Both the position numbers and the translations under genes were made by a program. Shown in pieces: positions 2,107-61,829 of a stretch of 64,000 nucleotides of DNA (positions are counted from its first letter, which is position 1; every line of letters starts with the position of its first letter). Origin of the DNA: Brasenia schreberi (lineage: Eukaryota; Streptophyta; Magnoliopsida; Nymphaeales; Cabombaceae); contig JAYKKT010000089.1 of assembly GCA_036023115.1 (NCBI GenBank), positions 22,426,501 through 22,490,500 on the forward strand, read 5' to 3'. Under the pieces are notes generated by a model that saw nothing but the letters and a program-made list of their open reading frames with translations, was not told the DNA's origin and made no database searches.

Positions 2107-3772
2107 AGAAAGAACTTAAGAGCTTAAGGTTGGACTAGCTGATTCGCAGACTGCATCAACCTCTTCTGTAGTTGCTTCTCAAGCTACTATGGCGTATCCT
2201 TTTTCATTCATGGCAAAAGGTAATGTATTTACTTCTCACTCTAGGATATAGGTTATTGATTTTGGCACCACACATCATATTATTGGTCAACAAGATTTCT
2301 TTGATTATCAGTTGATTAAAAAATTAACATTAGGTTGGCCAATGGATCTCTCATACTCCCATCGTTGGAAAAGCAAGTATAATTGTCCCTTTTGAAATAT
2401 TGAAAAATGTTCTACATGTCTAAACTATTTCAGTAAATCTATTATCAGTTTTTGCTATGACACAAGACCTAAATTACCATGTAATTTTTAATTTCACCGG
2501 TTGTTTCTTTCAGGAACGAAGGACGGGGAGGATCTTTCGTGAGGGTCCTATTCTAATTATCCAAAAGAATATCAGTTGTTTGTGATGAATGCAAATAAGG
2601 CTTATATACCTAAGATATATAAAGAAGCTTAACAATGTGCAGAACGGAAGACAGCTATGCAAGATGAAATTCAAGGTATGGAAAAAATTCACACCTAGAA
2701 ACTTACAGAGTTATCACTAGAGAGGAAGATCGTTGGTTGTAAATGGGTATACACTATCAAGTATTGAGTAGATAGGAATATAGAAAGATATAAAGCCAAG
2801 TTGGTGGCTAAAGGTTATAGCCAACCAATCCTATGGGATTCACCATATTGAAACATTTGCATCCGTTGCAAAATTAAATACTATTAGAATTCTCTTAAGT
2901 GTGGCAGTGAATCAGAAATGGGACTTATGGCAGCTAGATGTGAAAAACATGTTCCTTCAAGGAGATCTTACTGAGGATATTTATATGGACTTATCACCCA
3001 GTTATAATCAAAGGACAGAGCCACACAAAGTATGCAAGCTGAAGAAATCAATTTATAGATTAAAACAATCACCTAGAGCATGGTTTAAAAAATTTAGCAA
3101 AGGTGTTCTCAGCCTGGGTTTCAAACGTAGCACGAGTGACCACACATTATTCATGAGACATGATGAGAAGACTATTCTCTTGGCTGTATATGTTGATGAT
3201 ATTATTATTACAGGTAATGATGTGAAAGGAATCACAGATTTGAAGCAAGATCTACACAGGTAATTATGTTATACTCCTCATTCATCTCTCAGTATTGAAA
3301 TTTATTCAGATGTTGATTGGGCTGACTCTCTAGATGATAGAAGATCTACCTCTGGGTACATTATACGACTAGGGGGTAATATTGCCTCATGAAAAAGTAA
3401 GAAACAATCAATGGTAGCCAGATTTAGTGCTAAAGTAGAGTATTGTGCGATAGCTCTTGGTATGTGTTAGGGATTATGGATTTTATCGCTATTGGAAGAA
3501 ATTGGTATGTGAAGGATTATTCCAGTTAATTTCTTTAAAGACAGTAAAGCTGCACTTCAAATGGCTTCTAATCCAGTATTCTATGAGAGAACAAAACATA
3601 TCGAAGTTGACTATCATTTTATGAGAGAAAAGGTTTCCCAAGGAATTTTCAACATCATCCATGTTCGTTCTAAAGACCAGTTAGCTGATATTCTTACAAA
3701 ACTAGTAGCTGTGAATGAATTAAAGAAAGCTCTCGGCAAGTTGGGTGTTTCAAGTATTCAAGACCCAACTTA
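2107..3772 (+). pseudogene. copia-1 pol remnant
   Basis: Fragments in different frames give the protease region (VIDFGTTHHIIG, with the catalytic DSG changed to DFG), reverse transcriptase (open 2901-3263: LWQLDVKNMFLQGDL and YVDDIIITG) and RNase H ([22 protein letters not shown]). It ends at [10 protein letters not shown] and a stop just before the polypurine tract. Internal deletions remove the integrase and part of the reverse transcriptase. Several stops are visible. Confidence 0.82.
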
Positions 3773-20610: not shown

Positions 20611-22828
20611 AACTCCGCCCATGTAAGGGATCACCCTTGCATTGCCGGTCCCAAGTCCGGATAAAGGAGGAGGGTTGTGTTAGGCTTCTGATATCCAGCG
20701 TAAAACTTTGTCGGATTTTTATAACATAGATTTCAAAAATTATGAGCATTGATTTGGGGCATTCCTGCCTAGTGATGCGCTGTAGAGCCCGAATGCAGTG
20801 ATAAGTAAGTAAGGGGCACTACATTTTCGCCCGAATATAGTGAATAAATTGCAAAGAGGGTTCCCACATTATGGACAGGTGTGGGTAAAGAAGTTAGTCC
20901 TGCTACATTGCCACCCGAATGTAGTGAATAATTTTCAGAAAGGGTCACCACATTTTGAATATGGACGGATGCGGGGTGTAAGGAAGCTAGTTCTAGATAA
21001 TATGATTCGTATTGGTTCTTGGAATATCGAAACATTATCCGGTAAGCTAATGGAGGTGGTAGATATTATGATTTGGAGATTCATATTCTATGTTTACAAG
21101 AGACAAAATGGGTTGGAGAAAAAGCGAAGGAGATAGACGATATAGGTTTTAAATTATAGTACTCAGGTAAAGAAAAGGCTCAAAACTATGTTGGTATTAT
21201 CATAAATAAAGATTTAAAGGATAGTGTTGTACACATACAATGATATGGTAACCGAATCATGACATTGAAATTAGTGTTAGGAGCAGAGGTTTTCAATATA
21301 CTTTGTGCTTACGTACCCCAATTAGGACTAGAAGATAGTATAAAGATAACTTTTTGGGAAGAGTTAGATAAGGTGATTCAAAAGATTCCACAAAGGAAGA
21401 TATTTGTTTAGGAGACTTTGGACGTCGGTAAAGAGGCATTAGGATATCAAGGTATTCATAGAAACTTCTGTTTTGGGGATATAAATGAGGAAGGTTGGGA
21501 GATTTTAAATTTTGCTATGGCATTTGATCTCTTTATAGTAAATACACTCTTCAAAAAATGATATGAACATTTAATTACTTATAAGAGTGGCTTATCACAA
21601 ACAAAAATTGATTATTTTATTTATAGAAAAAAAGATACAACGTGTGGTAAAGATTGCAAGGTAATTCCAGGAGAAAGCTTAACCACCCAACGTCGACTTT
21701 TAGTTATGGATTTACAAATAAAAAAAAGGGACAAAGAAGAAAAGAGTGCATCGAGCTATTCGGACTAAATGGTGGAACCTCAAAAGCGAGAAAGAAGATA
21801 TATTTAAACAGAAAGTCCTTCAAGGAGATGTTTGGAATTATGTTGGTACACCCTGTGATATATGGAACAATATGGCTATACATATTAGGAAAGTGGCAAA
21901 AGATGTGTTAGGGGTATCTAAGGGAGGTGTACCTGCACAAAAAGAAGCTTGGTGGTGGAGTGAAGTAGTACAAAATAAAATCAAGGCAAAGAGGGCATAT
22001 TACAAATTACATTATACTAAGAAAACTAGTGAAACTTTAGAGGCTTATAAGAAAGCAAAGAAGGAAGCGAAAAAGGTCGTCAGTGAAGCAAAAGCTAAAA
22101 TTTGGGAGGACTTATATAAAAAACTCAACTCAAAAGAGGGTGAAAGAGATAATTTTAGGATAGCTAGGGCTAGAGATCAGAAACCTAAATATATTAATTA
22201 TGTTAGATGCATAAAAGACGAGGATGAAAAAATTTTAGTGGCAAGTGATGATATAAGAAATAGATGGAAAAACTATTTTTATAATCTTTTTAATGAAAAT
22301 AAAGATGTTAGTATTAGCTTAGGAGAGTTAGCCAAATCAGAAAAGTATATAAACCACAATTTCAATTAACGTATTCGAAAGAATGAAGTCAAAGAGGCTC
22401 TTAAACATATGAAGGGTGGTAAATAGGTAGGACCAGATAATATTTCTATAGAAGTTTGAAAAATACTAGGAGAAATAGGAATCACTTGGCTCACAAGACT
22501 ATTTAATGAAATATGGAAAAACCAAAAGATGCCCGAAGAATGGAGAGCAAGTACACTTATACCCATATATAAGAATAAGGGAGACATTCAAAATTGTGCG
22601 AATTATCGAGGTATCAAGTTAATGAGCCATACTATGAAATTATGGGAAAAAATTATTGAACGTAGGTTAAGACAAGTATCAAGTACAACAGAGAACCAAT
22701 TTGGATTCATGCTAGGTAGATCTACTATTGAAGCGATTCACCTTTTGAGACGTCTTATGGAACATTTTAGAGAAAAAAAATAAAGGCCTTCACATGATAT
22801 TTATTGTTCTAGAAAAAGCTTATGATAT
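20611..22828 (+). mobile_element. RTE-clade LINE D, 3'-truncated
   Basis: Begins with the conserved leader AACTCCGCCCATGTAAGG, then the N-terminal module, endonuclease and the first half of the reverse transcriptase. It stops near 22828 inside the [11 protein letters not shown] motif, where a hAT2-type terminus begins. No tail or TSD. Confidence 0.88.
20840..22783 (+). pseudogene. LINE D endonuclease and reverse transcriptase fragment
   Basis: Open pieces: 20840-21136 (RIGSWNIETLSGKLMEVV), 21746-22369 ([19 protein letters not shown], then the connector) and 22529-22783 ([18 protein letters not shown]). Stops and frame changes separate them. One stop lies in GGK*VGPDN, where other copies have Ser. 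Confidence 0.85.
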
Positions 22829-34494: not shown

Positions 34495-34679
34495 TAATGT
34501 AACTCAATTTAGTGAAAAAAATTTTGCCGCCTGAATGTAGTGAAAAATTTTTAGAGAGGGTCTCCGCATTTTGATTATGGACGGATGCGGGGGGTAAGGA
34601 AGCTAGTCCTAGATAATAAGACTCGTATTGGTTCTTGGAATATCGGAACATTATCCGGTAAGCTAATAGAGGTGGTAGA

Positions 34680-35001
34680 TGTTTAAGAATATGCTTATCT
34701 AATGTTCTTTGTGTTAGTTTTATGTTTCTAGGTATTATTGTACTCGCCCGAAACTTTAGGGGTATTTTGGTAATTTTCGATACTAGGGGTATTTTGATCA
34801 ATTTCTATTTTACAGTTCCCTATATAAGGGCTGGTAGATTGTATTAGAGAGAGTGAGATTGTGTTGTAAGTGTGAGTGGAGAAGAGGGGGGGCGACCTCC
34901 ATTGGAGGTCCGCCCCTTCCTTCAATCCATCGTTTTTCCTCTTTAATATAAGTCTCATTTTGTGTATTTAATCTCCTGCAATGTTTTTCTGAATTACAAC
35001 A
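34680..35001 (+). repeat. 5' LTR of the gene-carrying element
   Basis: 322 bp. TATA-like TATATAA at 34821-34827. A CCTCCATTGGAGG inverted repeat near 34894. It differs from the 3' LTR by an extra ~18-bp segment and scattered substitutions. Confidence 0.88.
34821..34827 (+). promoter_or_regulatory. TATA-like element in the LTR
   Basis: CCCTATATAAGGG context; the same motif lies at 38522-38528 in the 3' LTR. Likely the LTR promoter. Confidence 0.55.
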
Positions 35002-35013
35002 TGGTATCAGAGC
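35002..35013 (+). promoter_or_regulatory. tRNA-iMet primer-binding site
   Basis: TGGTATCAGAGC immediately after the LTR. Confidence 0.9.
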
Positions 35014-35190
35014 ATATTTCGATTGTTTGGAGCAATAGGAGCTATGGGATGATGATATGAGAACTAAGTGGAAAATCTTACGGCTTACACTTGGTATGTA
35101 GTATCCGAGGACTGATCTTCATCGTGGCTTTGATCATGTTTTGGGATAGAGGCAAGTAATAAAACTTTGCCATACTTTCAGTGGTCTTTA

Positions 35191-35372
35191 TGTTGACTAT
35201 ATGAATATCATGATGATTGATTATGCTATAAGACTACATCTGTCTCTTGCTGAATGAAATTAGAAGGGGCCAAAATTGTTATGTTGACTATATGCATATC
35301 GTGTTCATTGATTATGCTATAACACTACATCTGTCTCTTGCTGAATGAAATTAGAAGGTTCAGAAGGTTCGG
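35191..35372 (+). repeat. Tandem duplication, about 91-bp unit
   Basis: Two copies starting TGTTGACTATATG at 35191 and 35282, sharing ACTACATCTGTCTCTTGC and TGAATGAAATTAGAAGG. Confidence 0.85.
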
Positions 35373-35423
35373 TTACTTGTTGAGAAAACTGGCAGACCAC
35401 TTAAACTGGACACAGATGGCATT
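35358..35423 (+). pseudogene. Fragment resembling DNA polymerase epsilon catalytic subunit
   Basis: Reads VRLLVEKTGRPLKLDTDGI, which resembles the conserved LVEKIGRPLELDTDGIW block of polymerase epsilon; a stop replaces the next residue. It is only 22 codons and no further polymerase sequence is recognised around it, so the assignment is tentative. Confidence 0.5.
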
Positions 35424-35661
35424 TAGTGTGCATAGTTTTTTTTATTGCTGAAGACTTGAGATGATTGTTTTTAGACATGCTGGTATCAAAATGGTCTCTA
35501 ATGAAGGTAAAAGCTCATCATGCCACTCGGAAATGCACGATGTGCCTAACAGGAGCTTCTTGAAAATTTTCAACTATGAAAAGGATATCCATACTAATTA
35601 TTCCAAGTTTGCTGAGACTCTTGTTTCTGTATCACAGTGATATCACTTATGATCGTCAACT

Positions 35662-35664
<3 letters not shown>

Positions 35665-35707
<43 letters not shown>
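35665..35707. repeat. (TA)n microsatellite
   Basis: More than 20 TA units inside the element. Confidence 0.95.
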
Positions 35708-35710
<3 letters not shown>

Positions 35711-36032
35711 CAAGAGTTTGAAAAAATGTTATCTGATAAGCAACATGGAAAACGTCATCTGATAAGCATCATGACAAGAGTTTTTTTTTGGAAAAAGCAT
35801 GGGCTGAAAGTGGATGAATGAACATAAGCAGAGAAATTATGGGAGCTGCACGTATTGTGAAGACGATGGTGGCTGCCTTTATTGGATTTGGCAGCACAGT
35901 TGGATTAGGCAATACAATTATTGCATATGGCGGCTAGAATTAATTGCTGCAATATTACCTTGGAAAAGGAATATAAGAGGCAATTGCAAGATTGCATGGG
36001 GAATATGAGAAGCAATTAAACACTGAGAATTA

Positions 36033-36200
36033 TTGCTGGACATTAATGACAACCTGGGCGACTTTAATTGCACTATTCTGGAGGAAGATATTATGGACAT
36101 TAATGACAGCCTGGATTGCACTATTCTGGAGGCAGATAATATGGACATTAACGAGCAGATAATATGGACATTAATGACAGCCTGGGCGACTTTAATTAAT
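36033..36200 (+). repeat. Imperfect tandem repeat
   Basis: Repeats of ATGGACATTAATGACAGCCTGG and TTGCACTATTCTGGAGG (both with small changes), units of roughly 70 bp, partly nested. Confidence 0.75.
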
Positions 36201-36574
36201 AGTGCAAGTCCACTTATGATCACTGAATGGTGTTAGGAAATCTAATTGGCTGCAAAAGGTGGCTGATATGGCTGGAGTTATGGCATATGTTCTGTCCACT
36301 GTTGTATTGGAACTACAAAGCACTTATGGCGGCAATTTTTTTTTGCATTAATGTTGGTGAGATTCTGGAATCTGAGATTTTATATATGGCGGCTGAAATT
36401 AAGTGCAAATGGGTGGCTGCATTTACTGCATCTGGGCAGTAATGGGCCAGTGACTGATTACAAAGTTCTTTATTATGATTATGCTCTTGATCTAATCCTG
36501 GACGTTTTATCAACTCAATCCTGATCTCATTAAAGGCTATCCTGAATCACTGCCTCGAGTACTGCATTTCCTAA

Positions 36575-36886
36575 GGGTTCCTGACTGCAAAAGACTCGAC
36601 AACTAGAGGTTGACTAGCATCAATTCCAACCCAATGTCCAAGCCAGCCTCCTGATTCCTCACCCCAAGTATAAACTTCCTCTTGTCTGGTAACGAGTGCT
36701 GCATGCCTAACCCCACATGAAACACCATGAACATCCAAAACAACATTTGATTCGAGAGGCCCTGGAACCAGCAGATCATCTCTAGGAATTCTACCATTTC
36801 CATTGGTCAGAGAAGAATCGGCCAGCATTTGTCTCCAAACATAAACATCTCCTAAAGCATCACAATCGTCCTGAAACAGGGGATCT
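36575..36886 (-). pseudogene. Captured PRAF-type RCC1-repeat fragment
   Basis: Reads [12 protein letters not shown], then [40 protein letters not shown] and [10 protein letters not shown]. This matches the RCC1 region of plant PH-RCC1-FYVE (PRAF) proteins, where GDVYIWG and [17 protein letters not shown] are hallmarks. About 100 codons are open. No intron interrupts it. It is antisense to the LTR element and directly fused to an LRR piece upstream. Confidence 0.8.
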
Positions 36887-36892
36887 GAGTTG

Positions 36893-37020
36893 TTGCAGTC
36901 CTTAATAAATCCAGTTCTTTCAATGATTTCAAGTCTCCTATTCCTTCTGGAAAATGAGAAAACTTGTAGCCAAGCATTTCAAGAGAGTTGAGTTTACAGA
37001 TTTCATTAGGCAACTTTTGT
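36893..37020 (-). pseudogene. Captured leucine-rich repeat fragment
   Basis: Reads [18 protein letters not shown] and then [17 protein letters not shown], two LRR units of the plant intracellular type (LPxxIxxLxxL). It could come from an NBS-LRR or a Ras-group LRR gene; the piece is too short to decide. The same strand continues into the RCC1 fragment. Confidence 0.7.
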
Positions 37021-37044
37021 AAATACTTTGAATATGCAGTCAGA

Positions 37045-37440
37045 GCAAAAGAGATCAAGACAAGTTGCTGGGACCATCAGGTACACGTACTGATGCAATT
37101 AATGAATTTGAAGCAAAGTTCTAAGGTAAAACGAACAACTATTGGTCAAACAGGCAACAATTTGTTCCTTTCCCGAAGCACTACACATGGTCAGAGATGG
37201 ATTACAAGGATGATGTACAAGACTGGTGACAGAAATTGGTAATCAGCAACGTGATACAAAAGTTGATCAACGTATTTCTCAATTCATATCTCTTATATGT
37301 GATGTCAGCATAATGAAGCAGCAAATGGTTGAGATTGGTTATAATACTGAAAAGTTGCCACTTGGCAAGCTAAGTAAATCTACAATCTTAAAGGGTTATG
37401 AAGTATTAAAGAAAATCTCAGAAGTTATTGGACTTTCAGT
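37045..37440 (+). pseudogene. Captured PARP2 fragment, WGR to regulatory domain
   Basis: Poly(ADP-ribose) polymerase piece. First DQDKLLGPSGTRTDAINEF, then, after one stop, GKTNNYWSNRQQFVPFPKHY and TWSEMDY (WGR domain). After a frameshift near 37215 it reads ISQFISLICDVSIMKQQM, VEIGYNTEKLPLGKLSKSTI and LKGYEVLKKISEVIG (PARP regulatory domain). WGR and regulatory domain are joined without introns, so the source was spliced RNA. The catalytic domain is absent. Sense relative to the LTRs. Confidence 0.88.
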
Positions 37441-37856
37441 TGGAGATTGGATGGGTGAGATAGATAGGATGTTGCATGCAAATTTCTGCGGATAGAGTTA
37501 TCTGATTGCAAGAGTCATGGTGAAAGATCCAACAAACGTTAGGCTAGTTCAGATGGGCCAAAAGATGTTCAATATACGGAACTGAAAAGATCGGAAGATG
37601 TTTTTTTTTATGTGAAGTACTGGTGAAATGTGTTGGTTCATGCAGCTGCATTTGAAGATGATATTAAAAGCCTTGCTACCGCTGTGGTATGATGTGAAAG
37701 TTGCTTACTAGATCAAGCAGATGAATGATGCATATGAAGATGTTCGATGAAATGCTCAAGAAAGAGATGACTAACATGAACATGAAGAGTTTGAGGTATT
37801 GTTTAAGAGAACTAGAAAATTCTTGTGTAAGTTTCATGAGGATTACTTTGTTGTTA

Positions 37857-38235
37857 TGACAGTCAGGATGACTGCTTTATTGTTGTGTCAGTTAGGATGA
37901 CTGCTTTGATGTTGTGATAGCCAGGAAGGTTGCTTTGTTGATGTAACCGCCAGGATGGCTGCTTTATTGTTGTGACAGTCAGGATGGCTACTTTATTGTT
38001 GAGACAGTCAGGATGACTGCTTTGATGTTGTGACAGCCAGGATGGCTGCTTTGTTGATGTAACAGCTAGGATGGCTGCTTTATTTTTGTGACAGCCAAGA
38101 TGGTTGCTTTGTTGATGTAACAGCCAGGATGGTTGCTTTATTGTTGTGACAGCTAGGATGGCTGCTTTGTTGATGTGATAGTTAGAATGACTGCTTTGTT
38201 ATTATTACAGCTAAGAAAGCTGAGTTGATAATACA
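37857..38235 (+). repeat. Array of about 13 hairpin repeats, 29-bp unit
   Basis: The 13-bp core is AGYYAGGATGRCT (a 5-bp inverted repeat around GGA), joined by GCTTTRTTGTTGTGAC-like spacers. Variants include AGTCA/TGACT and AGCCA/TGGCT, so the two arms change together. It ends about 160 bp before the 3' LTR. A 29-bp unit cannot keep a reading frame. Confidence 0.85.
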
Positions 38236-38398
38236 GCCAGAGATGTTGCTTGTGATGATAAGCCAGGAAGGCCAAGATATTTCAAACAGATGAAGATAAG
38301 ATCCGTGATGAAGACAGATGAAGAACATTTCAAACAGATATGAAGATTTTTTGGCAAGTTTGGAGTTCGAAGTATCTCACTCTCAACTTGAGGGGGGG

Positions 38399-38702
38399 TG
38401 TTGAAGAATATGCTTATCTAATGTTATTTGTGTTAGTTTTATGTTTCTAGGTATTATTATACTCGCCCGAAACTTTAGGGGTATTTTGGTTATTTTGGTC
38501 AATTTCCGTTTTACAACTCCCTATATAAGGGCTGGTAGATTGTATTAGAGAGAGTGAGATTGTGTTGTAAGTGTGAGTGGAGAAGAGGGGGGGCGGCCTC
38601 CATTGGAGGTCCGCCCCTTCCTTCAGTCCATCGTTTTTCCTCTTTAATATAAGTCTCATTTTGTGTGTTTAATCTCCTACAATATTTTTCTGAATTACAA
38701 CA
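38399..38702 (+). repeat. 3' LTR of the gene-carrying element
   Basis: 304 bp, preceded by the purine tract CTTGAGGGGGGG and followed by the TSD GTAGA and resumed LINE F sequence. Confidence 0.9.
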
Positions 38703-39515
38703 GTAGATACTATGATTCGGAGAAAGATTCATATTCTATGTTTACAAGAGACAAAATGGGTTGGAGAAAAAGCAAAGGAGATAAAGGATACAAGTTTTAA
38801 ATTATGGTACTCACGTAAAGAAAAGGCTCGAAACGGAGTTGGTATTATCATAAATAAAGATTTCAAGGAGAGTATAGTAGACATACAACGATATGGTGAC
38901 CGAATCATAACGTTGAAATTAGTGTTAGGAGCAGAGGTTTTGAATATAGTTTGTGCATACGCACCCTAAGTAGGACTAGAAGATAGTATAAAGACAGTTT
39001 TTTGGGAAGAGTTAGATAAGGTGTTTCAAAAGATTCCACAAAGGGAGATCAATTGTTTAGGAGGAGATTTAAATGAATATGTCGATAAAGAGGCATTAGG
39101 ATATCAAGGGATTCATGGAAACCTTGGTTTTGGGGATATAAATGAGGAAGGTAGGGAGATTTTAAATTTTGCTATGGCATTTGATCTCTTTATAGTTGTT
39201 ACAATCTTCAAAAAATGATATGAACATTTAATTACTTATAAGAGTGGCTTATCACAAACACAAATTGATTACTTTATTTATAGAAAAAAAGATAGAGCGT
39301 GTTGTAAAGATTGTAAGGTAATTCCAGGAGAAAGCTCAACCACCCAACATCGACTTTAAGTTATAGATTTACAAATAAAAAAGTGGACAAAGAAGAAAAG
39401 AGTACATCGAGCTATTCAGACTAAATGGTAGAACTTCAAAGGCGGGAAAGAATATATATTTAAACAGAAAGTCCTGCAAGGAGATGTTTGGAATTATGTT
39501 GGCACACCCTGAGAT

Positions 39516-40910
39516 ATGTGGAACAATATGGCTATACATATTAGGAAAGTTGCGAAAGATGTGTTAGGGGTATCTAAGGGAGGTGTACCGGCACAAAAAG
39601 AAGCTTGGTGGTGGAGTGAAGTAGTACAAAATAAAATCAAGGCAAAGAGGGCATGTTACAAATTACATTACGCTAAGAAAACTAGTGAAACTTTAGAAGC
39701 TTATAAGAAAGCAAAAAAGGCCGTTAGTGAAGCAAAAGCTAAGATTTGGGAGGACTTATATAAAAAACTCAACTCAAAAGAGGGTAAAAGAGATATTTTT
39801 AGGATAGCTAGGGCTAGAGATAAGAAAACTAAAGGTCTTAATTATGTTAGATGCATAAAAAACGAGGATGAAAAAATTCTAGTGGCAAATGATGATATAA
39901 AAAATAGATGGAAAAACTATTTTTATAATCTTTTTAATGAAAATAAAGATGTTAGTATTAGTTTAGGAGATTTAGCCAACTCAGAAAAGTATATAAACCA
40001 CAATTTCTACCGACGTATTCAAAAGAATGAAGTCAAAGAGGCTCTTAAACATATAAAGGGTGGTAAATCGGTAGGACCAGATAATATTCCTATAGAAGTT
40101 TGGAAAATACTAGGAGAAATAGGAATCACTTGGCTCACAAAACTATTTAATGAAATATGGAAAAACCAAAAGATGCCCGAGGAATGGAGAACAAGTACAC
40201 TTATACCCATATATAAGAACAAGGGAGACATTCAAAATTGTGTGAATTATCGATGTATCAAGTTAATGAGTCATACTATGAAATTATGGGAAAGAATTAT
40301 CGAACGTAGGTTAAGACAAGTATCAAGTACAACAGAAAACCAATTTGGGTTCATGCCAGGCAGATCTACTATTGAAGCGATTCACCTTTTGAGACGCCTT
40401 ATGGAACATTTTAGAGCAAAAAAGAAAGACCTTCACATGATATTTATTGATCTAGAAAAAGCTTATGATAGGGTACCGAGAGAGGTTCTTTGGAGAACTT
40501 TGGAAAAAAGAGGTATCCCATTGACATATATTAACCTTATAAGAGACATGTATGATGGTGCAAAAACATGTGTGAGGACTCATGAAGGAACGACAGACTT
40601 CTTTGAAGTTAATATTGGGTTACATCAAGGATCAACTTTAAGTCCATACTTATTTATAATGGTGATGGATGAGTTAACAAAACATATTCAAGATGAAGTA
40701 CCTTGGTGTATGTTATTTGCAGATGACATTGTATTAGTGGAGGAGTCTAAGGAAAAAGTTAATAGAAAATTGAAACTATGGAGAGAAACATTAGAAAGCA
40801 AAGGCGTCCGACTTAGTAGAACAAAGACAAAATATATGGAATGTAAGTTTGATCATTTGGTTACTTCAAAGGACATGGAAATTAAAATTGGCACACATTG
40901 CATCCCCTAA
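39516..40910 (+). CDS. LINE F reverse transcriptase, long open part
   Basis: 464 codons from [18 protein letters not shown] to a stop after IGTHCIP (other copies read IPQKESF). Motifs: [79 protein letters not shown] and the catalytic [12 protein letters not shown]. After the stop the frame continues to 41384 with [19 protein letters not shown]. Endonuclease pieces upstream (38712-38969, 39021-39218) are broken by stops. The longest reverse transcriptase frame in the window, but the whole protein is not intact. Confidence 0.88.
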
Positions 40911-41536
40911 AAGGAAAGTTTTAAATACCTAGGGTCAATTTTTCAGAGTGATGGAAGAATTGATGGTGATGTTACACATAGAATTAATGATGGTTGGTTA
41001 AAATGGAGAGGAGCATCAGGTATTCTTTGTGATAAGAAGATACCATTAAAGTTAAAAGGTAAATATTATAGAGCAGCAATTAGGCCTACCATGTTTTATG
41101 GTTCTGAGTGTTGGGTAGTTAATCATCAATATGTACAAAAGATGTCTGTGACGGAAATGAAGATGTTGAGATGGATGAGTGGTCATACAAGAAAAAACCG
41201 TATAAATAATGAGGTTATTAGAAACAAATTAGGAGTGGCACCAATAGAGGATAAAATGAGAAAATATCGTTTAAGATGGTTTGGACATATAGAAAGAAGA
41301 TCAAAAGAAGAACTTCTAAGAAGGTATGAAAAACTAAATTTGGAAAGTATTAAAAGAGGTAGAGGACGACCACAAAAGTGTTGAAAGAAACAATAAAGAA
41401 TGATCTAGCTTATTGTGAGTTAACTGCTAACATGGCACATGATAGGGATGTGTGGAAACAAAGAATCCATGTAGCTGACCCCGTCTAGTATGGGAAAAGG
41501 GTTAGTTGTTGTTTGTTTGTTGTTAATGTAACTCAA

Positions 41537-45490: not shown

Positions 45491-47694
45491 AAGTACAACA
45501 ACAACAACTAAGCCTTTTCCCATACTAGACGGGGTCGGCTACATGGATTCTTTGTTTCCACAGATCTCTATCGTGTGCCATGTTAGCAGTTAACTCCCAA
45601 TAAGCTAGATCATTCTTTATTGTTTCTTTCCAACACTTTTGTGGTCGTCCTCTACCTCTTTTAATACTTTCCAAATTTAGGTTTTCTAACCTTCTTACAG
45701 GTTCTTCTTTTGATCTTCTTTCTATATGTCCAAACCATCTTAAACGATGTTCTCTCATTTTATCCTCTATTGGTGCCACTCCTAATTTGTTTCTAATAAC
45801 CTCATTATGTATACGGTCTTTTCTTGTATGACCACTCATCCATCTCAACATCTTCATTTCTGTCACAGACATCTTTTGTACATGTTGATGATTAACTGCC
45901 CAACACTCAGAACCATAAACATGGCAGGCCTAACTGCTGCTCTATAATATTTACCTTTTAATTTTAATGGTATCTTCTTATCACAAAGAATACCTGATGC
46001 TCCTCTCCATTTTAACCAACCAGCATTAATTCTATGTGTAACATCTCCATCAATTCTTCCATCACTTTGAAAAATTGACCCTAGGTATTTAAAACTTTCT
46101 TTTTGGGGAATGCAATGTGTGCCAATTTTAATTTCTATGTCCTCTGAAATAGCCAAATGATCAAACTTACATTCCATATATTCTGTCTTTGTTCTACTAA
46201 GTGGGAGGCCTTTGTTTTCTAATGTTTCTCTCCATAGTTCCAATTTTCTATTAACTTTTTCCTTAGACTCCTCCACTAATACAATGTCATCTGCAAATAA
46301 CATACACCAAGGTACTTCATCTTGAATATGTTTTGTTAACTCATCCATCACCATTATAAATAAGTATGGACTTAAAGTTGATCCTTGATGTAACCCAATA
46401 TTAACTTCAAAGAAGTCTGTCGTTCCTTCATGAGTCCTCACACATGTTTTTGCACCATCATACATGTCTCTTATAAGGTTAATATATGTCAATGGGATAC
46501 CTCTTTTTTCCAAAGTTCTCCAAAGAACCTCCCTCGGTACCCTATCATAAGCTTTTTCTAGATCAATAAATATCATATGAAGGTCTTTCTTTTTTGTTCT
46601 AAAATGTTCCATAAGACGTCTCAAAAGGTGAATCGCTTCAATAGTAGATCTGCCTGGCATGAACCCAAATTGGTTCTCTGTTGTACTTGATACTTGTCTT
46701 AACCTATGTTCAATAATTCTTTCCCATAATTTCATAGTATGACTCATTAACTTGATACCTCGATAATTCGCACAATTTTGAATGTCTCCCTTGTTCTTAT
46801 ATACGAGTATAAGTGTACTTGCTCTCCATTCCTCGGGCATCTTTTGGTTTTTTCATATTTCATTAAATAGTCTTGTGAGCCAAGTGATTCCTATTTCTCC
46901 TAGTATTTTCCAAACTTCTATAGGAATATTATCTGGTCCTACCGATTTACCACCCTTCATATGTTTAAGAGCCTCTTTGACTTCATTCTTTTGAATACGC
47001 CGGTAGAAATTGTGGTTTATATACTTTTCTGACTTGGCTAAATCTCCTAAACTAATACTAACATCTTTATTTTCATTAAAAAGATTATAAAAATAGTTTT
47101 TCCATCTATTTCTTATATCATCATTTGCCACTAAAATTTTTTCATCCTCGTCTTTTATGCATCTAACATAATTAAGATCTTTAGTTTTCTTATCTCTAGC
47201 CCTAGCTATCCTAAAAATATCTCTTTCACCCTCTTTTGAGTTGAGTTTTTTATATAAGTCCTCCCAAATCTTAGCTTTTGCTTCACTAACGGCCTTTTTT
47301 GCTTCCTTCTTTGCTTTCTTATAAGCTTCTAAAGTTTCACTAGTTTTCTTAACATAATGTAATTTGTAACATGCCCTCTTTGCCTTGATTTTGTTTTGTA
47401 CTACTTCACTCCACCACCAAGCTTCTTTTTGTGCCGGTACACCTCCCTTAGATACCCCTAACACATCTTTTGCCACTTTCCTAATATGTATAGCCATATT
47501 GTTCCACATATCAGAGGGTGTGCCAACATAATTCCAAACATCTCCTTGAAGGACTTTTTGTTTAAATATATCTTCTTTCTCACTTTTGAGGTTCCACCAT
47601 TTAGTCCGAATAGCTCGATGCACTCTTTTTTTCTTTGTCCATTTTTTTATTTGTAAATCCATAACTAAAAGTCGATGTGTGATCAATTTTTCTA
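45491..47694 (-). mobile_element. RTE-clade LINE G, 5'-truncated
   Basis: Tail ACAACAACAACAAC on the plus strand at 45491, then the complete reverse transcriptase region, truncated at the end of the endonuclease (HRLLVMDLQIKKW). No convincing TSD. Closest to intact of the LINE reverse transcriptases here. Confidence 0.88.
45525..47667 (-). pseudogene. LINE G reverse transcriptase
   Basis: Three open pieces. Connector and N-terminus end at 46853 ([19 protein letters not shown] ... [17 protein letters not shown]). The core is at 45863-46840 ([67 protein letters not shown]). The C-terminal part is at 45525-45872 ([20 protein letters not shown]). Only a stop (near 46852) and a frameshift near 45870 separate them. 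It supplies the empty-site reference for hAT1. Confidence 0.88.
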
Positions 47695-47925
47695 ATATCA
47701 ATTTTTCTCCCCTTTTAAAGAATAATGTGTGATCACTCACACTCTTCTAATATCCCAAGCTTATAATACTTTGGTTGAACTTCTCAAACCAAGTTCTAGG
47801 ATACTATTTTAGTCCATAGATAGCTTTCTTTAATTTATAAACTTTGTTTTCTGGATTTGCATAACCAGGTGATAATTCCATATAGACTTTTTTTTAAGTT
47901 CTTGCAAAAATGCATTCTTTATAAT

Positions 47926-49670
47926 AAACCCATTCCTGAAGTTGATTTGAGATATCGAAGAATTCTGTACACTGCATCCATCTGATTCTTAGTTGCCGAG
48001 TGCATATATCTGCTCATAATACCAACTGCATAAGTAATGTCTGGCCGAGTAATAGTTAAATATATAAGCTTACCAACCAGTTTATGATATTTGTGAATAT
48101 CTTTGAACTCTTCATTGTCACCTCTGAAAAATTTATGATTTACCTCCATAGGAATGTCAATAAGCTTATACTCTAGCATATGTCTCTTCAAGAAGATCCA
48201 TTATATGTATTTCCGCTCAGTTAGGAAGATACCTCTGTTAGAATAGAGAACTTCTATGCCCAAAAAATAGTGGAGCTGACCCAAATCTTTAATTAATAAT
48301 GTCATCCACATACACAAGTAGAATAGTGAGTTTACCTTCTTGTGAATGTTTAAAGAAGAGAGTATGATCACCTTGACTTTGCCTATATCCCAAGGACACC
48401 ATTGCCTTTGTAAACCTTCCAAACTATGCTCGGGAGACTGCATTTAACCCATACAAAGCCTTTTTTAACTTGCATACCTTATTTCTTCCATTGGTGGAGT
48501 CATAACCGGGTGGAATCTCTATATAAACTTCTTCCTCCAAGTCTTCATGAAGGAATGCATTTTTAACATCAAACTAATGCAATTCCCAACCAAAGAGTGC
48601 AAGAAGAGAGAGTAGGATTCTTACAATATTCATCTTTACTATTAGAGCAAATGTCTCCGATAGTCAATTCCATAAGTTTGAGTGTGTCCTTTGTAATTTA
48701 CCTTGCCTTATATCTATCTAGTATACCATCGATTTCGATATTTCAAGGTACAGATCCGACACATTACCCCACCGGTCTTTTGTTACTAGGTTTTTCAACA
48801 ATCTTCCATGTTCCATTCTTCTCCAGAGCACTCATCTCCTCATTCATGGCTTGAACCAGTTCTTATCCTTCAATGCTTCTTCTATTGATGTTGGAATTTG
48901 AACGTAATCAAGAGATGAAATAAAACTCTTATGTCAGCAAGAAAAGATTTTTGGAGGAAATAAATTGAGAAATAGGTATCGAGTACACGACCTTTTCCTT
49001 TTCTCAAGGCAATGGGTAAGTCATCCGGGTCAAGATCACAATTGGACCCGTGCAAAGAAATGAACGAAAAGCTCTCGAAACAAAGACTTAAATGGCGGCT
49101 TCAAATTTTCCGAAAAACTCTCCCCCGAAACTAAGGACGAGAAAAAAAATAAGACTCTGCAGATCATGAAAAATGACATCCATGGAGACAAAGAAACGAT
49201 GACTCGAAGGATGATAGCATTTATACCCTATACTTTACTGACTTTGGATCTAGTTTATCACGATTCGAAAGATAGATATGGACAAAGCAGGTACATCCAA
49301 AGATATGAGGGACTAGATGAAATGATTTTGATTCTTTATCAAGACACTGAAGAGGACTCTCTCCTTGAATTGTATTACTTGGCATTCTATTTATGAGATA
49401 AACAACAGTAAGGATGGCTTCTACCTAGTAGAATTTTGGAACATTATTTTGGAGTAGGAGAGTTCTGGCTACCTCCAAAATATGACGATTTTTCTGTTCA
49501 GCAACACCATTCTGCACCATTCTGCTGGGGTGTATAAGGGCAGGATGTCTCATGAATAATCCCCTGTGATCGTAAATATTCTTGTAACTGAGTGCCAATG
49601 TATTCGCTCCCATTATCTGACCGAAGAATTTTCATAGAGGTATTGAATTGAGTACAAATAAATTTATGCA
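47926..49670 (-). pseudogene. copia-9 integrase end, reverse transcriptase and RNase H
   Basis: LRSDNGSEYIGTQLQEYL and QQNGAEWCC-like sequence (a small duplication disturbs the QQNGVAE motif), then CFVHIYLS and MDVIFH in the degraded linker. Reverse transcriptase motifs follow, then KLIYLTITRPDITYAVGIMS and MDAVYRILRYLKSTSGMGLL. Many frameshifts. Confidence 0.75.
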
Positions 49671-49703
49671 ACAACAACAACAACAACTAAGCCTTTTCCC
49701 ATA

Positions 49704-50026
49704 CTAGACGGGGTCGGCTACATGGATTCTTTGTTTCCACAGATCTCTATCGTGTGCCATGTTAGCAGTTAACTCCCAATAAGCTAGATCATTCTTTATT
49801 GTTTCTTTCCAACACTTTTGTGGTCGTCCTCTACCTCTTTTAATACTTTCCAAATTTAGTTTTTCTAACCTTCTTACAGGTTCTTCTTTTGATCTTCTTT
49901 CTATATGTCCAAACCATCTTAAACGATGTTCTCTCATTTTATCCTCTATTGGTGCCACTCCTAATTTGTTTCTAATAACCTCATTATGTATACGGTCTTT
50001 TCTTGTATGACCACTCATCCATCTCA
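49704..50026 (-). pseudogene. LINE reverse transcriptase C-terminal end in the chimera
   Basis: Last ~105 codons of the RTE protein ([20 protein letters not shown] ... HVADPV), nearly identical to LINE G. Open but without the catalytic part. Confidence 0.85.
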
Positions 50027-50186
50027 GTTTAATATCTGTTCTTATCAGTTTAATATCTGATACGTGGTCCATTGGATCACATGATATTAAATTAGTTTTT
50101 GTTGGGGGAGGGTGGTACTGCGATAGCTTGCTATCGGGCCCTTCAGGCGTCGCCCATACTTTGCACTTCTGCGCGGGCCTGGCGCA
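50027..50186 (+). ncRNA. U2: U2 snRNA retro-pseudogene, 5'-truncated
   Basis: Starts around U2 nucleotide 32 and runs to the 3' end. Recognised by ATCTGTTCTTATCAGTTTAA, the GATATTAAA element, GGGGGAGGG and the 3' stem-loop GCGATAGCTTGCTATCGGGC, then GCGCGGGCCTGGCGCA. The first ~31 nucleotides, part of the branch-site recognition region and any promoter are missing, so it should not make U2. It is part of a LINE insertion. Confidence 0.87.
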
Positions 50187-50332
50187 AAATATAAACTCCG
50201 CCCATGTAAGGGATCACCCTTGCATTGCCGGTCCCAAGCCCGGATAAAGGAAGAGGGTTGTGTTAGGCTTCCGACAGCCAGCGTAAAACTTCGTCGGATT
50301 TCTACAACATGGATTACAAATAAATTTATGCA

Positions 50333-61009: not shown

Positions 61010-61829
61010 CCATTCCGTTTGAGATTGTTCATTCAGATATTTGGGGTCCTTGTTCTACTATTTCTATGCAGGATATAAGTACTTTGTCTCATTCATTGAT
61101 GATTGTACTAGATTCACTATAATATATCTCATGAAAACTAAAAATGAAGTGAAGAATATTCTTTCAATGTACAGTCAATTTGTACATACTCAGTTCCAGC
61201 GTACCATAAGAGTTTTTCGCAGTGATAATGGGGGTGAGTTTATGTCTCGATCACTTCACTCATATTTTCTAGATCATAGAATTTTGCATCAGACCTCATG
61301 CGCCTATTCTCCTCAACAAAATGGTGTTGCCAAAAGAAAAAGTTGGCATATTCTAGAAGTTGCAAGGACTCTTTTAATTGGATGTAATGCACCAAAATGT
61401 TATTGGGGTGAAGCTGTTTTGACAACAGTTTTTCTTATAAATCGTATGCCAAATAGGGTCCTCAGTGGGAATACTCCATTTCATTCGTTATGTCCTTCCC
61501 AAAAACAATTTCATCTTCTTCCAAGAGTGTTTGGGAGTACATACTTTGTTCATATTCATGAGGGTTTAAGGGATAAACTAGATGCAAGATCGATCAAATG
61601 TATCTTTCGGGTTACTCCTCTACTTAGAAGGGGTACAAGTGTTCTGACTGATCCCATCAGAAGAAAATTGTATGTTACAATGGATGTTACCTTTCATGAA
61701 GATACACCATTTTATAATATGCAAGAAGTTGTTCCATTAGATGTAAAGTCTCCACCTGTGATACCACTTCCACCAGTTGAAATTAAGCCTATACAGGAAG
61801 AGAAAGGGGAAGAGATGATACCCTATTAA
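61010..61829 (+). pseudogene. copia-10 integrase
   Basis: HSDIWGPCS (first Asp, in another frame just before the open part), FRSDNGGEF (second Asp), then QQNGVAKRKSWHI, where the third catalytic residue Glu is Lys. It continues through LLPRVFGSTYFVHIH and MDVTFHEDTPFY to a stop at 61829. It is missing the N-terminal zinc-binding part. Confidence 0.85.

Follow-up and report, generated by a model that had tools for sequence, protein, structure and literature searches.

Twin priming and the capture of small nuclear RNAs (snRNAs) are known mainly from mammalian L1. In human, inverted U1, U2, U5 and one U6/L1 chimera, which are 3'-truncated, have been attributed to twin priming in which the second strand was templated by the snRNA (Doucet et al. 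2015, PMC4476161). Such chimeras were cited in the original prediction for the present locus as a property of mammalian L1, and they are indeed known there, but they are not confined to it: in Anolis, U6 chimeras with RTE-like, L2-like and L1-like LINEs are described, those with L2 and RTE being stated as template switching only (PMC4476161). Microhomology is reported to be more frequent at the 5' junctions of 5'-inverted L1 (PMC2912911), and an antisense bias has been treated as a possible sign of twin priming (PMC13174262). In PMC4245944, 5' inversions came only from human L1 in human cells, save one Nimb-2_DR insert, so that inversion of an RTE-like LINE would be unusual. Tripartite LINE chimeras formed by double template jumps are described from Magnaporthe and mammals (PMC2104539). 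For RTE elements, a (TTG)n or (TTGATG)n 3' repeat is given in flowering plants (PMC3747384), and twister motifs conserved at the 5' end are mentioned in work announced as in preparation (PMC7761336). The insertion described here, in which twin priming and snRNA capture are read as one event of an RTE-like LINE, is located in a window of 64,000 nucleotides, the whole stretch of Brasenia schreberi DNA that was analysed.

Content, target site and LINE family of the insertion

The repeat listing of the window shows 644 nt enclosed by one 18-nt target-site duplication (TSD) at 49653-50332. On the plus strand the TSD encloses, in order, an antisense LINE 3' end starting from the complement of the (TTG)n tail, a sense U2 snRNA, a short filler, and a sense LINE leader (Table 1). 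The duplication and the three parts within it had been recognized in the original prediction and are confirmed, each part having been matched. The snRNA lies within the same single TSD as the LINE, as judged from the Rfam match and from paralogous empty sites, which is the pattern of co-insertion in snRNA/LINE chimeras. An inverted 5' segment and a sense 3' segment that do not overlap and share one TSD are likewise the pattern of twin priming. The LINE 3' segment covers coordinates 2930-3283 on a LINE scale of 3283 positions and the leader about the first 127 nt; having no overlap, the two segments could have been copied as separate cDNAs from one RNA.

Table 1. Features of the insertion and related matches (positions in the window unless a locus is named)
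Feature	Position	Strand	Basis or remark
Left TSD, TACAAATAAATTTATGCA	49653-49670		identical to right copy, 18/18
LINE 3' end with (TTG)n tail, the ~353 terminal nt of an element of ~3.28 kb; side of the first-strand cDNA	49671-50026	-	alignment of LINE copies
TCA common to LINE and U2 at the inversion joint	50024-50026		compared with LINE at 45825-45870
Second copy of U2 bases TCAGTTTAA (other copy 50045-50053)	50024-50032	+	15-nt exact repeat; taken as slippage at TATCTG
Copy of U2 snRNA starting at Rfam model position 37 and ending close to the 3' end; first ~36 positions absent	50033-50186	+	RF00004, 96.9 bits
AAATATA, filler separating U2 from the LINE 5' terminus; perhaps untemplated, or from a further source	50187-50193	+	assigned to neither U2 nor LINE
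LINE 5' leader, beginning at the 5' terminus (AACTCCGCC) and ending shortly after the start codon (ATG 50309-50311); side of the second-strand cDNA	50194-50314	+	alignments of LINE copies
Type-P1 twister ribozyme match; predicted cut between 50193 and 50194	50189-50261	+	RF03160, 53.8 bits, below gathering score
TACAAA common to target and LINE start-codon region ATGGATTACAAA; second-nick primer match	50315-50320		sequence comparison
Right TSD, TACAAATAAATTTATGCA	50315-50332		identical to left copy, 18/18
Copia copies aligned through the target site	42516-42286, 30352-30119, 61092-61325, 20570-20337		two of the four with a stop codon
Other leader matching RF03160	2043-1971	-	57.5 bits
Other leader matching RF03160	20606-20678	+	55.7 bits
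Other leader matching RF03160, locus L021	1071-1143		49.3 bits

The host of the insertion is copia integrase sequence, in antisense. When the flanks are joined with a single duplication, an uninterrupted integrase frame is obtained across the site, and a 78-residue integrase segment aligns through it free of gaps to four other copia copies in the window, with 50-60% identity. The four copies are paralogous empty sites and not an orthologous allele. The empty copia site called for in the original prediction is represented here by the restored frame and these paralogous copies. A 10-nt tandem duplication (accattctgc twice) is found elsewhere in the integrase sequence, at 49506-49525, where the frame changes.

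Both LINE segments are close to other copies. Positions 49674-50026 are 99.7% identical to the LINE at 45495-45847 of the window, and the LINE 3' end is 100% identical to a genomic copy (G000:C81:15573471-15573832). The leader had been expected to align with the leaders of other LINE copies, and with a few flank bases it does so at 97.7% (copy at 2044, minus strand) and 92.6% (copy at 20611, plus strand); its closest relative among the copies fetched is that in locus L015 (98.3%). TTG-type tails, some of them short or imperfect, are present in the LINE copies of the window and in 39 fetched copies, and the tail is of the (TTG)n type given for plant RTE. RVT_1 domains were identified above cut-off in the LINE ORFs (E 6.3e-38 and 1.1e-40), and Exo_endo_phos was found just below it (E 3.5e-5; 24.1 bits against a cut-off of 24.5), while the fourth of the ORFs given (46853-47740) gave no domain match. 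By tail, domains and 5' motif the LINE may be called RTE-like. One LINE copy of the window (34524-41524, TSD about 15 nt) is split by an element with about 90% similar ends (34680-35001 and 38399-38702), probably a nested LTR element.

The genome searched comprises 1.055 Gb in 92 contigs and gave 3414 first-look candidates, of which 40 were scored, namely the unit of the window and 39 other copies. A TSD-like string of 12-22 nt lies within 6 nt of the 5' end in 18 of the 39, and none is flush in the remaining 21; these strings may include tail letters, and two further matches, one of 13 nt inside the LINE (L014) and one of 17 nt lying 20 nt off (L035), were left out of the 18. A duplication of 18 nt is normal for this LINE. 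TTGCA stands at the tail end in 26 of the 39 copies, as in the insertion at 49653-50332, a count that is biased because the finding query contained that motif beside the tail. In L011, L015, L030 and L042 a LINE copy is followed by TGCAT(A/C)AA(A/G)GACGAGGATGA and then by LINE sequence from about nt 1616. All four occupy one and the same position within further copies of this LINE, a hint that the element prefers a target within its coding region.

The same search bears on the possibility that the unit belongs to a family of composite SINEs combining LINE ends with a U2 portion. SINEs headed by an snRNA are known in animals, which gives this reading a precedent. A second precedent, SINEs with an RTE 5' end, is listed for mammals (PMC3747384). 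No second copy of the 680-nt unit was found among the 40 scored of the 3414 candidates, the 39 other places matching the LINE 3' end only, and the two LINE parts of the unit stand in opposite orientations, which speaks against a SINE. With a single full-length match, the unit itself, among those 40, the composite SINE was rejected as very improbable, and the repeated LINE-U2-LINE family named in the original prediction as grounds for abandoning it did not appear within that sample.

The U2 copy and the LINE 5' terminus

The Rfam scan identified U2 (RF00004) with 96.9 bits and E 3.3e-18, so that the absence of U2 similarity, the other outcome against which the original prediction had been set, did not occur. 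The reported span, 49998-50192, starts in the LINE and ends in the filler, and U2 was therefore taken as 50033-50186. U2 is present as predicted, but not from about nucleotide 32: the exact match begins at TATCTG, at position 37 of the Rfam model, and the 9 nt before it repeat U2 sequence. Positions 50024-50032 are the same as 50045-50053, and the full exact repeat is 15 nt long (50024-50038 and 50045-50059) and includes TATCTG, TCAGTTTAA being the bases that precede the second U2 TATCTG (positions 58-63). No exact repeat of such length was obtained in 1000 dinucleotide shuffles of 50024-50192. A straight U2 copy from nucleotide 32 was also considered. Ordinary U2 has GTGTAG before TATCTG, both in the Rfam consensus and in a U2 fragment of the same genome (L010), while the insertion in the window has GTTTAA, which the L010 fragment indicates not to be ordinary U2 sequence. 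GTTTAA fits GTGTAG in four of six bases, against a full fit to the 15-nt repeat, and a slip was preferred. A slip between two TATCTG sites, or a repair polymerase doing likewise, would be the simplest cause of the repeat.

Toward the 3' end the U2 match extends as far as the A of ...GGCGCA, after which the final six positions of the consensus (cccuuu) are aligned with AAAUAU. The copy is near-complete at its 3' end, and the exact U2 3' end sought in the original prediction is not evident at the junction. The 7 nt that follow (50187-50193) fit neither U2 nor LINE. They resemble the AAATAA flank of LINE copy A, a likeness that was taken as chance in AT-rich DNA. The U2 pattern and the leader pattern gave no match in viral contigs.

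The start of the leader was compared with that of other copies by means of a reference reaching six bases further upstream, in which position 7 is the first base of AACTCCGCC. Among the fetched loci, 10 contain eleven leaders, which start at position 7 in six cases, at position 6 in three and at position 3 in two, and six further copies with a partial leader begin at positions 13 to 56. The leader of the insertion starts where other leader-bearing copies start, indicating that the second cDNA reached the end of the LINE RNA, and this agrees with the original prediction that it was copied to the RNA 5' end.

The leader also resembles the type-P1 twister RF03160. At a permissive threshold it matches with 53.8 bits (E 3.9e-11 in a search of 801 bases and 3.3e-9 in one of 68,661 bases), and all four leader matches, from the window and from L021, at 49.3-57.5 bits, are below the RF03160 gathering score of 67.2 and absent from scans at the gathering threshold. 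The published twister cut lies between U and A (PMC6154101); applied to the leader matches, this would place the cut at AACTCCGCC, where the copies are observed to begin. In each copy host DNA supplies the upstream strand of stem P1, and the base before the predicted cut is here A instead of the consensus U. The LINE 5' end thus coincides with the predicted cut of a putative twister-type ribozyme, the match being sub-threshold. Since a twister has been reported at RTE 5' ends (PMC7761336), a ribozyme-like 5' end would be a known feature of such elements, in keeping with the (TTG)n tail given for plant RTE (PMC3747384).

One more U2 match was found among the 39 fetched copies, in L010 (3108-3274, minus strand; L050), with 50.6 bits at the Rfam gathering threshold. 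Here a U2 stretch covering model positions ~25 to 72 meets the LINE in the sense orientation at nt ~298, the two overlapping by GC (2 nt), and the upstream sequence is the tail of an older, 80% identical LINE. In about 6 kb of upstream sequence exact matches reach 8 nt at most and no TSD of at least 9 nt was detected, and L010 is for that reason a junction and not a proven single insertion. Its sequence suggests a template switch into the interior of U2, in an event separate from that at 49653-50332. A rate of U2/LINE junctions cannot be derived from the 39 copies, as these are the ones scored among 3414 candidates. A tentative reading of both junctions, to which we give little probability, is that an RTE-like LINE with a twister-made RNA 5' end recruits U2 repeatedly by at least two routes, one being a template switch of the first cDNA (L010) and the other the second cDNA of twin priming at the ribozyme-made terminus, with the free 5' end, possibly ligated to U2, as the cause. 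Two tandem U1 snRNA matches in L035 (3819-3980 and 4045-4206, plus strand; 137.6 and 100.2 bits), about 2.7 kb from the LINE copy, are probably ordinary U1 genes.

Probable twin priming and proposed passage onto U2 RNA

Two microhomologies were identified at the points where twin-primed insertions have them. The start-codon region of the LINE, ATGGATTACAAA, and the target, GAGTACAAATAAA, have TACAAA (6 nt) in common exactly at the expected priming point of the second nick, and in a simple model a match of at least 6 nt has a chance of about 0.002 (0.2%) for a random join. The border match to the leader claimed in the original prediction exists, but not as TTACAAA, as the preceding target base is G. 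At the inversion joint TCA is both the start of the U2-side repeat and the last three bases of the LINE segment, so that the two cDNAs could join by a 3-nt overlap; the chance of this match is about 0.06 in a simple model, and on its own it is weak. The joint is one of LINE to U2, not of LINE to LINE.

Twin priming explains the orientation of the parts, the duplication, both microhomologies and the missing middle of the LINE. The best explanation is a single event in which twin priming was combined with passage onto U2 RNA, the LINE being young, of high copy number, and inserted in one retrotransposition event; a probability of about two in three applies to this explanation as a whole. The plus strand would have been nicked after ATGCA and would have primed first-strand cDNA on the (UUG)n tail, with synthesis ending about 353 nt in. 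The opposite strand would have been nicked 18 nt away, its 3' end TTTGTA pairing with UACAAA at the LINE start codon, and this second cDNA, in what constitutes twin priming, would have copied the leader to the RNA 5' terminus. These two steps are well supported. We infer that, on passing the LINE 5' terminus, the reverse transcriptase may have appended some 7 nt and switched to U2 RNA, entering it at or close to the 3' end. While copying toward the U2 5' end, the strand may have slipped between UAUCUG sites 21 nt apart and re-copied 9 nt, to judge from the repeat, which a repair polymerase could also yield. Finally, the cDNA ends would have met through TCA and been filled in, a step that the joint supports. 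The twin-priming model of the original prediction is supported, what it requires having been observed: one TSD, an empty-site frame, microhomology of the primer with the leader, a leader that extends to the LINE 5' terminus, a joint microhomology, LINE segments without overlap, and no second copy of the whole unit among the 40 scored of 3414 candidates; the jump itself stays at the level of inference.

The DNA alone cannot separate such a jump from a preformed U2-LINE RNA followed by plain twin priming, as both leave the same DNA. A preformed RNA could have arisen by ligation of U2 to the ribozyme-made 5' end, or from a LINE downstream of a U2 gene that was read through with the ribozyme failing; self-cleavage leaves a 5'-OH, which is usable by plant tRNA ligase. 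We regard this origin as unlikely, but it keeps real weight because the junction lies at the predicted ribozyme cut, U2 being joined to the LINE there with 7 nt between. The A before the cut might weaken cleavage, and flanking sequence, 3' of a U2 gene or 5' of a LINE donor, could have supplied the filler. U6/LINE-1 chimeras are discussed as RNA ligation or template switch (PMC13174262). However, AAATATA would not be accounted for if mature U2 had simply been ligated, U2 should be cut away during read-through where the ribozyme is active, and the L010 junction, with its internal U2 site, LINE nt ~298 and 2-nt overlap, looks more like template switching than end joining, none of these points being decisive. 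The jump is favoured because an active ribozyme should strip a read-through leader, and because LINE reverse transcriptases are reported to make end-to-end jumps without homology (PMC6895275). Against the jump stands the 7-nt filler, whose source it does not explain.

Two or more events, or repair, could also be supposed, an inverted LINE having later gained a U2 retrocopy or break repair having captured unrelated cDNA pieces. In plants templated filler is often inserted during end joining; the TCA joint and the repeat with its 21-nt spacing could come from a repair polymerase, and L010 has U2 beside a LINE with no TSD found. These origins are nevertheless improbable: in the repeat listing one TSD surrounds everything and no duplication flanks U2 alone, and U2 has the LINE 5' terminus on one side and the truncated LINE 3' part on the other, which is the only position for it under the twin-priming model. 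The identities of the two LINE segments to their closest copies among those examined (98.3% for the leader, with L015, and 100% for the 3' end) leave little time for layering.

LINE pieces on the opposite strand were found in 10 of the 39 fetched loci when all alignment rows were used and opposite-strand pieces shorter than 60 nt were left out, and none of the 10 was shown to be twin-primed. L036 proved to be a LINE nested in another LINE when a longer flank was examined (L048); L013, L029, L033, L041 and L045 fit nesting, the host LINE continuing on both sides; in L032 and L034 the piece lies outside the flush TSD; in L028 a 60-nt piece is about 2 kb away; and L009 was left unassigned. Inversion is at most rare in this sample of 39 copies.

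Comparison with known systems

No plant case, and no case of priming in a LINE leader followed by passage to an snRNA, was found in the open-access papers searched, where the U2 letters used as a text query also gave no match. The novelty put forward in the original prediction holds in this literature for the combination of plant RTE, U2 and inversion, but inverted U1/U2/U5/U6-L1 chimeras and sense U6/RTE chimeras are already published (PMC4476161). What the follow-up analysis added is the TATCTG slip, the 7-nt filler, the ribozyme-like LINE terminus and the L010 junction. Most steps are kept as sequence in this three-part scar, namely the nick, the primer match, the 5' terminus, the jump point, the slip and the joint. 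The locus suggests that RTE-like LINEs can prime on both nicks, and that, after reaching a 5' end set by a ribozyme, an RTE-like reverse transcriptase can go on to copy a different RNA, U2 being accessible to the enzyme.

The 5'-inverted LINE insertions (PMC2912911, PMC4245944) are alike in their two cDNAs, in microhomology at the second nick and at the joint, and in TSDs of 10-20 nt, but have one RNA template in the accounts cited. The tripartite LINE chimeras (PMC2104539) also consist of three RNA-derived parts, the fungal one within a single TSD, whereas they are described as successive 5'-to-3' fusions, with no inversion mentioned in the text consulted. The RTE elements with a twister (PMC7761336) are comparable in having a LINE 5' terminus at a twister-type motif, which is putative in the plant LINE, where the matches are below the Rfam gathering score and cleavage is predicted. 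The sense U6/RTE chimeras of Anolis (PMC4476161) likewise join an RTE-like LINE to an snRNA, but are ascribed to template switching. Closest are the human snRNA/L1 chimeras (PMC4476161), in which the snRNA also lies opposite the LINE 3' part; the described cases are bracketed by TSDs, there is complementarity where the second nick primes, and U2 is one of the snRNAs involved. There, the second strand is primed inside a 3'-truncated snRNA and no LINE 5' segment is described, whereas the plant insertion, from an RTE-like LINE and not mammalian L1, appears to have been primed in the LINE leader and to have entered U2 near its 3' end.
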